A model generated the notes under the pieces. It was not told the origin of the DNA. It was given only the letters and a program-made list of their open reading frames with translations, and ran no database searches. A program made the translations under genes and the position numbers. This document shows positions 34,225 through 36,614 of a stretch of DNA of 64,000 nucleotides, one piece after another. Where the stretch lies: contig CACWZA010000004.1 of the NCBI GenBank assembly GCA_902765215.1, forward strand, positions 1 to 64,000, written 5' to 3'. This DNA is from an uncultured bacterium. Its GTDB lineage: Bacteria; Cyanobacteriota; Vampirovibrionia; Gastranaerophilales; Gastranaerophilaceae. How positions within the stretch are numbered: the stretch's first letter is position 1; each line of letters begins with the position of its first letter.

Positions 34225-34641
34225 ATGTCTATAAATTGCATTACCCCAAATTCTTCTTTTTCATATTGTCCTGCGGTATCGGGTATCGATTCGGAGGAAA
34301 AAGAAATTATTAAGCGTTTGTTGGCGTACGGCTACACACCGACAGGGGATAAAGCAACAGACAAAGCGCATTTAAGAAAAATTGAGTTAGAGAAAGCAAA
34401 ACAGGATAATTATGTATCCGACAAGTATTTGACGGTTTCTACTGCAGAGTGTCGTCGTATACAGGAAAGAAAAAAAGAAAAACTCAAAATCAATAACCCT
34501 GAGAAAAAGCCTGATATACAGGAAAAAAGACAGGGCGCAAAGATTTTGGGTGATCAGATTTTCCTTGCAATAAAAATGAAGCAGGACAAAATGCACCCTG
34601 AAAAAGAGGATAAAAGCTACAGACTTAAGAAGGTTTCTTAG
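34225..34641 (+). CDS. Hypothetical charged protein
   Basis: A 138-residue protein with no recognised domain. It starts with MSINCITPNSSFSYCPAVSG, matching the M-x-I-x-x-(hydrophobic) start seen in other lineage proteins here. The rest is Lys- and Glu-rich and probably helical (LRKIELEKAKQDNY, QERKKEKLKINNPEKKP). No membrane segment. It is convergent with the zinc-ribbon gene and only 16 bp from it. Function cannot be stated. Confidence 0.65.
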   Translation: MSINCITPNSSFSYCPAVSGIDSEEKEIIKRLLAYGYTPTGDKATDKAHLRKIELEKAKQDNYVSDKYLTVSTAECRRIQERKKEKLKINNPEKKPDIQEKRQGAKILGDQIFLAIKMKQDKMHPEKEDKSYRLKKVS

Positions 34642-34657
34642 TTTTTTTAATCGCTGA

Positions 34658-35056
34658 TTATATAACCGTTGTCGTGTAGTTCTTATTTGTTTTGTGTTTA
34701 TTAAGGACAAAATCCTTTATTGTTTGGAAATAGTCTTTGTTGTCGTTTGTCGCAATATGTTCTCCGCATTCATCGCAATAGAATTTTATAACATGACTTC
34801 CCGACAGAACTGATGCTCCGCAAAAATAAGGGATAAGTGCTTCTTCTTTACCGCAAACGGGACATTTGATTTTAGGTAAATTATTGTTTTTTATTTCAAA
34901 GTTACCCAAATGTAAGAATTTTGCTTTTAGTATTCCGTTATTGTACGCACCCTCACAGTCAAAGATTGTAGGGAAAAGTTCTCCGATATTGTAGCACTCT
35001 CTTTCCGGTACGGTCATTTTAAGTAATTCTGCCTTTGTTTTTGTTAATAAATTCAT
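34658..35056 (-). CDS. Zinc-ribbon protein under a SAM-I riboswitch
   Basis: A 132-residue protein with two cysteine pairs, CPVCGKE and CDECGEH, spaced about 32 residues apart, forming a likely zinc ribbon in the middle third. The N-terminal part (MNLLTKTKAELLKMTVPERE...) and the C-terminal helix have no recognised match. GAGG precedes the ATG. The 115-nt SAM-I-type aptamer at 35155-35269 ends about 100 nt upstream on the same strand, so expression probably answers to S-adenosylmethionine. Nothing in the protein itself resembles methionine or SAM metabolism, so its link to that pathway is unknown. Confidence 0.75.
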   Translation of the reverse strand: MNLLTKTKAELLKMTVPERECYNIGELFPTIFDCEGAYNNGILKAKFLHLGNFEIKNNNLPKIKCPVCGKEEALIPYFCGASVLSGSHVIKFYCDECGEHIATNDNKDYFQTIKDFVLNKHKTNKNYTTTVI

Positions 35057-35154
35057 TTTCTGCCTCGCTTTCTTTGTTCAATACCAAAAGCGTGTGCGAA
35101 AAATTTTTTACGGCAAAATTTTATTACCATAGTTTGACGGGATATTATCTCAAA

Positions 35155-35269
35155 TTTAATACTACCCATCGTCGGTTTGTTACCGTCAGGCATTAGCACC
35201 GTTAAGCAATAGCTTTGGTTGCTGTGTAGTCACAGGGCCTGTCCCTCGTACACTCTTTATGGTATTAAA
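35155..35269 (-). promoter_or_regulatory. SAM-I riboswitch (S-box)
   Basis: On the minus strand the conserved blocks occur in order. P1 is TTTAATAC closing with GTATTAAA at the far end. Next come GAGGGACAGGCCC, then GCAACC, then GGTGCTAATGCCTG. These are the core of the SAM-I aptamer: the kink-turn strand, the P2 to pseudoknot region and the J3/4 block. SAM-I RNAs usually control methionine or SAM genes and shut them off at high SAM. No clear terminator is seen before the downstream start, so control may be at translation. Confidence 0.85.
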
Positions 35270-35492
35270 TATTAAATTAGTAATGTGCTCTTTATAAGCT
35301 ACACTTTTTTTCGGGAGTTGTCAACCTTTTTACATGCTGAGTAATTAGAATGTATTATAAACATTTGTAAAAATCCTCTTTACATAGTATGTTTGTTTTT
35401 CTATTCATGGTACACTATAAATTAAGATATGTTTAATGCATATTTGGTTAGTGAGCTGTTAATTATATATTAGCGTGCAAAATGGAGAAATT

Positions 35493-36614
35493 ATGAAGTA
35501 TATCAACTACAAAAAGAACGAACTTGAACGAATCAATATAGAATTATTTAAGATATCATTACCTGATTTGAAGAATGTAAATAAGACAGAAGTTATATCT
35601 GACTGGCTTATGGAAACCATTGATGGTGGGATAAAAGATAACTTGTTTGCTGCAGGTCAACTGCTCCCTACAAAGGCAGAACTTGCCTACGCACTCGGGG
35701 TTAGTCTGGGAACTATTCAAAATGTTTTGAGAATACTGGAAGATAAAGATTATATTTTCTCAAAACAGTGTATCGGTTCAATTATAAAAGACAGAACAGA
35801 TTCTGAATCAAATATAAGAAAAAGAACATCTAAAAAAGATATAGCAGAAGAACGAATCAAAGCATATATCAAAAACAATAATATGGTTAATGGTGATAAA
35901 TTGCCTGTATCTCGTCAGTTGGGCAGAGAGATAGATATGGCGCTTAATACAGTCAGAAACGCAATTGTTTCTCTGATTTCTGACGGCATACTTGAATATA
36001 ACTCTAAAAAAGAATTGATAATTAAAAACAGCGATTTTACAATTGATACTGATGCCGATGAAACAACTCTTGTTTCTAAGGTGAAAGATGATTTGAAGAA
36101 ATATATTTGTGAAAACTTTAAAATCGGGGATAAGTTATCTTCTCACGAAGAATTGTCAAAGTTATTCAATGTGAGCATGAAAACTATCCACAATGCTGTT
36201 CAGATACTTGTTAAGGAAAATATGTTACTTCCTCGCCGCGGTGCGTATGGAACAACGGTTATCAATACCTCATTAAATTCCGCATTCGAGCCGAGAAGGG
36301 AAATGTCTATCTTTGCTCCTGCAAAAGAAACAGCCTTCTATCATTACCAAAAGATTCAAAACAAAATTAAAAATATTATAACTGATGATTATGATATCGG
36401 TTCAAAACTGCCTTCTATTTCAGCATTCTCACAAATGTTGGATGTTAGCCCTAACATTATAAGAAAGGCATTAAACAACCTTGCTAAAGACGGTATTTTG
36501 AGATTTACAAGAGGCAGATATGGCGGAACTTATGTAATAGACCTGCCTGAGCCGACTGAACAGGCGTTCAGATGGCTTGCCGTTAACCCTCAGTACAGTA
36601 AGGTTAAAGTTTAA
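35493..36614 (+). CDS. Regulator with four GntR-type winged helices
   Basis: A 373-residue protein made of four successive GntR-type winged-helix domains at about residues 33-98, 116-178, 193-257 and 285-350. Each repeats the pattern G-x-x-L-(P/S)-x(4)-L...V...T-x-x-x-A-(hydrophobic)-x-x-L...D/E-x-(I/M)-L. Examples are GQLLPT, GDKLPV, GDKLSS and GSKLPS. Ordinary GntR regulators have one such domain plus an effector domain; no effector domain is present here. It is probably a DNA-binding protein that touches several sites at once. The ATG at 35493 follows GGAG and is preferred over 35475. Confidence 0.85.
   Translation: MKYINYKKNELERINIELFKISLPDLKNVNKTEVISDWLMETIDGGIKDNLFAAGQLLPTKAELAYALGVSLGTIQNVLRILEDKDYIFSKQCIGSIIKDRTDSESNIRKRTSKKDIAEERIKAYIKNNNMVNGDKLPVSRQLGREIDMALNTVRNAIVSLISDGILEYNSKKELIIKNSDFTIDTDADETTLVSKVKDDLKKYICENFKIGDKLSSHEELSKLFNVSMKTIHNAVQILVKENMLLPRRGAYGTTVINTSLNSAFEPRREMSIFAPAKETAFYHYQKIQNKIKNIITDDYDIGSKLPSISAFSQMLDVSPNIIRKALNNLAKDGILRFTRGRYGGTYVIDLPEPTEQAFRWLAVNPQYSKVKV

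Follow-up and report, generated by a model that had tools for sequence, protein, structure and literature searches.

The window analysed here is a stretch of 64,000 nucleotides from an uncultured bacterium of the family Gastranaerophilaceae, in which a SAM-I riboswitch aptamer lies on the minus strand ahead of a small zinc-ribbon gene (Table 1). When the whole window was scanned with cmscan, the RF00162 match running from 35265 to 35163 scored 61.9 bits against a gathering threshold of 44.4 (E 5.9e-12) and covered positions 1-108 of the model, which is thereby complete. The alignment retains the conserved blocks AAGAG, GAGGGAC, GGCCCU, UGA, GCAACC and GGUGCUAAU, the four-way junction P1-P4 and the conserved core are present, and the mispaired positions fall mostly at the outer end of P1 and in P3 and P4. 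The zinc-ribbon ORF starts 107 nt 3' of the aptamer on the same strand. A sequence-only reading of this DNA had proposed both elements, a SAM-I riboswitch with its conserved blocks on the minus strand and a 132-aa zinc-ribbon protein as the next gene on that strand, and both were recovered. By its sequence the aptamer is a member of the known class RF00162 and would be expected to bind SAM. This class classically controls genes of sulfur, methionine or methyl metabolism, a context that is usual rather than required for membership; here, and at all 22 loci described below, the ORF found downstream is that of the zinc-ribbon protein.

Table 1. Features of the zinc-ribbon locus, with positions in the window.
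Feature	Position	Strand	Basis
SAM-I riboswitch aptamer (RF00162)	35163..35265	-	cmscan, 61.9 bits, complete model; recovered in whole-genome search
Aptamer 5' strand (P1 5', J1/2, P2 5', P3 5'), predicted to pair with leader sequence immediately 5' of the Shine-Dalgarno site	35243..35267	-	duplex energy compared with shuffles
Anti-Shine-Dalgarno element, the predicted switch strand, with complementarity to both the Shine-Dalgarno region and the 5' strand of the aptamer	35078..35102	-	shuffle tests
Predicted Shine-Dalgarno site CGAGGC, 5 nt before ATG	35062..35067	-	folding
132-aa zinc-ribbon protein	34658..35056	-	ORF; alignment of 20 homologues; match to MqsA zinc-domain profile
Module (aptamer, leader and gene), approximate extent	34642..35340	-	absent in G006; ends approximate
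Flank: 138-aa ORF	34225..34641	+	homologue 61% identical beside the empty site in G006; no Pfam match
Flank: protein with four GntR-type DNA-binding matches	35475..36614	+	conserved in genus

The host genome (2.15 Mb in 47 contigs) contains one further SAM-I match and no others, a sub-threshold copy of 27.9 bits (L002, C21:13667-13766). This copy is degraded, with its 5' half intact and its 3' half beyond recognition, and no same-strand ORF of at least 60 aa begins within 420 nt downstream of it. The metK gene of the host is located on contig C3 and is not preceded by SAM-I.

The cysteines of the zinc ribbon are Cys65, Cys68, Cys94 and Cys97 (CPVC...CDEC), and an alignment of 20 homologues displays a conserved core around IPY..G.S.LSG.H.I.F. 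In one member, L081, the C-terminal third differs and the second cysteine pair is lost; another member is cut by a contig end. The best PDB match of the family profile in hmmsearch was the N-terminal zinc domain of MqsA (3ga8, E 5.8e-4), and hhalign gave a probability of 94 against an approximate MqsA sequence. The Pfam match of the single protein to the MqsA zinc domain was below the cut-off (14.3 vs 30 bits). Of the 27 Pfam matches of the protein, the 25 listed include no helix-turn-helix family, and because no such domain was matched we do not call it MqsA. The structural model (pLDDT 84) contains one C-terminal helix, at residues 107-121. Searched against the PDB with Foldseek, it returned no match at E<=0.001; the best VIA-align match, the zinc ribbon of NrdR (Z 3.6 over 45 residues, rmsd 2.2), scored too low to provide a family name, and MqsA was missing from the list of VIA-align matches. 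Neither a SAM-binding fold nor a metabolic enzyme fold was recognised by Pfam or the structure searches, and PADLOC gave no match for the protein.

Linkage between riboswitch and gene was followed in the 383 genomes of the host's family and in a wider sample of 84,980 species. Within the family, the zinc-ribbon protein occurs in 19 genomes; 20 of its loci are strong (E <= 2.2e-24), and one further match is weak. In the same genomes RF00162 yielded 48 matches, 45 of them over the cut-off, spread over 42 genomes. Each of the 20 strong loci has a same-strand SAM-I directly upstream. The scan of the wider sample returned 21 homologues, 19 being loci already in the family set; the two extra ones (L124 and L138) also have SAM-I upstream, which brings the total to 22 of 22 distinct strong homologues. 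This count leaves out the weak match (G385:C83:10848, 29% identity, E 2.2e-5), where no SAM-I was listed. The MAGs from which the named homologues come are labelled Candidatus Gastranaerophilales, Melainabacteria, cyanobacteria or uncultured bacterium, and no homologue was found in viral contigs (two scans), phage records or plasmids. Whether homologues are likewise preceded by SAM riboswitches had been left by the sequence-only reading as a check on the pairing; with SAM-I ahead of every strong one, the observation is stronger than first stated, and the pairing of switch and gene is real, exceeding what chance would give.

Aptamer and zinc-ribbon gene occupy the same place in the genome G005 as in the window. 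In G006, the homologue of the flanking 138-aa ORF adjoins the promoter region of the GntR-type gene, with neither aptamer nor zinc-ribbon gene between them. We see here an insertion of about 0.7 kb in the window relative to G006, with approximate ends and a single empty site, for which loss in G006 is possible; no target duplication was recognised at the module ends in this comparison. The module is patchy, being found in 19 of the 383 family genomes, and its surroundings vary between loci; we infer mobility rather than repeated loss. A DUF2130 gene follows downstream in 7 of the 22 zinc-ribbon loci, either overlapping the end of the zinc-ribbon gene or lying up to about 145 nt beyond it. Pfam matched 169 families in 140 proteins of the neighbourhoods, and the 25 most frequent include none of methionine metabolism; matches to a defence library were few and generic (WYL, UvrD) among the 25 of 130 families listed. 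The GntR-type neighbour of the window carries its four winged-helix matches in one chain of 379 aa, and the 25 Pfam matches listed, out of 40, include no ligand-binding domain; its matches in three relatives contain in-frame stops.

The 48 SAM-I matches of the family were sorted by eye according to the gene that they precede, with Pfam run on examples. They stand before the zinc-ribbon gene (20), a gene for a small protein starting MEQQ (10), an IS1595-type transposase gene (PF12762; 9, one weak), a gene resembling that of N-formylglutamate amidohydrolase (PF05013; 3, with 1 more outside the family) and a gene for a small putative DNA-binding protein without Pfam match (3). The three matches left over, of which two are weak, are single cases. 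Not one of the 48 in the 383 family genomes was seen to precede metK, whereas outside the family metK, recognised by eye, lies behind SAM-I at 7 of 10 loci. In view of this difference, SAM-I seems to have been lost from metK in the family of the window genome and retained on accessory genes. The sequence-only reading had held that a different, recognised methionine gene behind the riboswitch in relatives, with the zinc-ribbon gene missing, would count against its proposal. SAM-I does precede such a gene at the metK loci of the sister families, but these are other loci, and it does not extend to the family itself, where the zinc-ribbon link is without exception among strong homologues.

Over the first 49 aptamer nucleotides, the similarity between the zinc-ribbon and MEQQ classes (0.864) is about the same as that within the zinc-ribbon class (0.857), and the MEQQ and amidohydrolase classes reach 0.924, which suggests that leaders with different cargo share a common ancestry. 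Linkage of the transposase to SAM-I is only partial when compared to the zinc-ribbon (22 of 22) and MEQQ (10 of 10) families: of 41 transposase homologues listed, in 39 of the 383 genomes, 9 have SAM-I (8 over the cut-off and 1 weak), and none was found at the 12 that were scanned among the remainder. At L104:8928-10121 (minus strand), L094, L099 and others, both a SAM-I leader and a terminator precede the IS1595-type transposase gene. Terminal inverted repeats were sought around the nine SAM-I-controlled transposase genes; none was convincing in eight cases, and the ninth was too short for testing. The loci with a SAM-I leader ahead of an amidohydrolase-like gene are L025, L026, L032 and L014 (PF05013 was tested on one), and one locus of this group comes from another family of the order. 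At L009:1684-2127 (plus strand), also in another family, a SAM-I aptamer of 62.9 bits precedes a 147-aa protein without Pfam match.

The MEQQ family is present in 10 of the 383 genomes, and SAM-I was found at all 10 of its loci (e.g. L033:814-1419, minus strand, and nine homologues). Its sole PDB profile match up to E 10 was the phage SAM lyase Svi3-3, a weak one (E 1.1). The structural model, with a pLDDT of 90, has its best matches among SAM lyases and SAM-AMP lyases, including a Foldseek E of 2.3e-5 against 6zm9 (Z 10.7, rmsd 3.4 over 100 residues), and the lyases reached Z scores of 10.7, 9.7 and 9.5, compared to 9.0 and below for PII and CutA proteins. The predicted fold is a GlnB-like alpha-beta fold, as in Svi3-3. 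Glu69 is catalytic in Svi3-3 according to PMC7877911; in one low-scoring profile alignment the corresponding column holds Met or Leu in the MEQQ family, on which account the MEQQ protein may bind SAM without cleaving it. Among the MEQQ loci looked at, two have a Mu-type transposase or a phage integrase in their vicinity. At locus L088, in G144, the two genes after the SAM-lyase-fold gene resemble DNA methyltransferases by eye. The MEQQ family and the transposases point to mobile elements sensing SAM, and they are the ground for our guess of a mobile-element role for the zinc-ribbon module.

The expression platform was examined by duplex energies, shuffle tests and folding. In the window, the best duplex between the aptamer 5' strand and the leader has an energy of -20.9 kcal/mol, compared to -8.2 +/- 2.1 kcal/mol for 300 dinucleotide shuffles. 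The joint shuffle test of this leader gave p 0.000 of 300, and the pairing of the element with the Shine-Dalgarno (SD) region alone gave p 0.13. The SD hexamer is predicted to be unpaired at 0.71 in the full leader, versus 0.22 with the downstream part folded without the aptamer. A shift of accessibility in the same direction, often slight, was obtained for 30 of 33 leaders; for the SAM-lyase-fold and amidohydrolase classes, little or no change is predicted.

Most leaders contain, between terminator and start codon, about 20 nt that are complementary to P1 to P3 on the 5' strand of the aptamer. Of 46 leaders, 30 showed this complementarity at p<=0.01 and 38 at p<=0.05, counts that are not independent since the leaders share descent. 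In the same test the transposase and DNA-binding leaders were treated in a fixed interval without a fixed start, and the leader G254c, whose start had been misplaced, stayed below significance and passes at the corrected start. For the 20 zinc-ribbon leaders, the complement of the aptamer 5' strand reached p<=0.05 singly in 19, the joint test p<=0.01 in 19 and the element:SD pairing alone p<=0.05 in 12; at least 4 nt are common to both pairings in all 20, and one leader, G359, fails both shuffle tests. The joint test was passed by 7 of 10 MEQQ leaders and 1 of 4 amidohydrolase leaders. The complement was found at p<=0.05 in none of seven sister metK leaders, of which L007 has a significant SD pairing, and it was not seen in any of three leaders of the DNA-binding class. 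The paired columns exhibit two-sided changes (at aptamer nt 4, for example, C-G 16, T-A 15 and T-G 12), in counts that rest on a duplex search which in itself favours pairs.

Many relatives carry in addition a terminator whose 5' arm repeats the 5' strand of P1, and the 3' strand of P1 can pair with either. Such predicted competition for the 3' strand of P1 corresponds to the common layout of OFF switches. Terminators were clear in 28 of 50 leaders with a strict script, which overlooks hairpins visible by eye in several zinc-ribbon leaders; no terminator was found in the window leader.

From these foldings, we infer that the window leader controls translation and does so in the OFF direction. 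At high SAM, the aptamer would fold and keep its own 5' strand, and the freed element at 35078-35102 would pair with the SD region and block translation. At low SAM, the aptamer 5' strand would pair with this element and the ribosome site would be exposed. In many relatives, competition between the terminator 5' arm and the 3' strand of P1 would provide a second, transcriptional arm, the window copy apparently having the translational arm alone. It is to be noted that the ligand-free fold of the leader (-62.2 kcal/mol, nearest-neighbour energies) is about 16 kcal/mol better than that of aptamer and downstream part taken apart (-46.2 kcal/mol). With such a gap an equilibrium switch would stay ON; the switch would thus be kinetic, decided during transcription, or else the model is wrong. 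The arrangement suggests a two-strand expression platform that is a variant of the known one.

We consider it probable that SAM-I is an OFF switch for the zinc-ribbon gene and that aptamer, leader and gene form an accessory module in this family of Gastranaerophilales; it appears that an accessory gene has adopted a switch known from the control of methionine metabolism. The sequence-only reading had suggested that the gene might belong, as yet unrecognised, to sulfur or methyl metabolism, as would befit the classical targets of SAM-I and a linkage of 22 of 22. However, its occurrence in 19 of 383 family genomes indicates that the gene is dispensable, methionine families are absent among the 25 commonest neighbour families, neither a SAM-binding nor a metabolic enzyme fold was recognised, and other SAM-I copies of the family precede transposase and phage-like, SAM-lyase-fold proteins rather than met genes. 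The metabolic proposal, methionine metabolism included, is not supported, and we regard it as rather improbable. It is equally improbable that the switch acts on transcription alone, with the anti-SD element as a by-product of common descent: clear terminators do occur in many relatives (28 of 50 leaders by the strict script), but the window leader has no terminator and is yet among those with the strongest complementarity between aptamer and element, and the sister metK leaders are devoid of the element. Least probable would be a chance-carried orphan aptamer without any regulation of the zinc-ribbon gene. Apparently functional aptamers situated away from related genes, and possibly orphaned, are mentioned in PMC2258182, and the second SAM-I copy of the host genome is degraded; against this stand the linkage at 22 of 22 loci and the complementarity of the aptamer to the sequence ahead of the ribosome site, which is kept in leaders with two-sided changes.

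The module might also take part in the conflict of mobile elements with their host, being switched on when SAM is depleted, for instance by phage enzymes that degrade it. This would fit the MEQQ family with its SAM-lyase fold (10 of 10 under SAM-I) and its two loci near a Mu-type transposase or phage integrase, the partial control of the transposase family by SAM-I and the DUF2130 partner in 7 of 22 loci. It remains unlikely, though less so than the alternatives above, as PADLOC has no match for the zinc-ribbon protein, defence-type matches among the neighbours are few and generic (WYL and UvrD, in the 25 families listed), the MEQQ lyase-fold proteins are without the catalytic Glu, and the viral, phage and plasmid collections hold no zinc-ribbon homologue. 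A bolder version, in which SAM-I would have changed in these gut bacteria from a nutrient sensor to a SAM-depletion alarm in mobile-element conflict and the zinc-ribbon (with DUF2130), transposase and SAM-lyase-fold genes would be induced together through closely similar leaders, many of them two-strand, is speculative and less likely still. Within the preferred reading of an accessory module under an OFF switch, we tentatively suggest, as possible though doubtful, that the protein is a binding or regulatory factor acting through its MqsA-like zinc ribbon at low SAM, sometimes with DUF2130, in a mobile-element or defence function and not in methionine synthesis.

Riboswitches serve as markers of ligand metabolism and for the annotation of unknown genes. 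Here, a textbook metabolic riboswitch is seemingly off metK and acquired by several unrelated accessory families within one bacterial family, and annotation based on the ligand would consequently mislead. The linkage also gives a first handle on the zinc-ribbon family and its DUF2130 context. In the literature as represented by titles and abstract openings, with subscription papers largely outside, SAM-I before a transposase, zinc-ribbon or SAM-lyase gene is unreported; the case is predicted to represent a new type of target for a known aptamer class, together with a variant of the platform.

Among known systems, the zinc-ribbon protein shares with MqsA (YgiT) the CxxC...CxxC zinc ribbon, and differs from it by the lack of a matched helix-turn-helix and by an extra conserved N-terminal half. 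The MEQQ family, as distinct from the window gene, resembles the phage SAM lyase Svi3-3 and SAM-AMP lyases in predicted fold, but differs from Svi3-3 at the catalytic Glu69 column. The riboswitch itself is like other SAM-I (S-box, RF00162) elements in its complete aptamer with conserved core and, in many relatives, in the OFF-type logic of P1, antiterminator and terminator; it differs in its accessory zinc-ribbon target and in that the 5' strand of P1 and P2, in addition to the 3' strand of P1, is a predicted switch strand, acting on translation. In the dual transcription and translation attenuation platforms described by Barrick and Breaker (2007, PMC2258182), the ribosome site is located within the 3' side of the terminator. 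As in that description, action of one aptamer on both levels is predicted for many of the relatives studied here, whereas their terminator and ribosome-site hairpin are separate, each competing for a different strand of P1.
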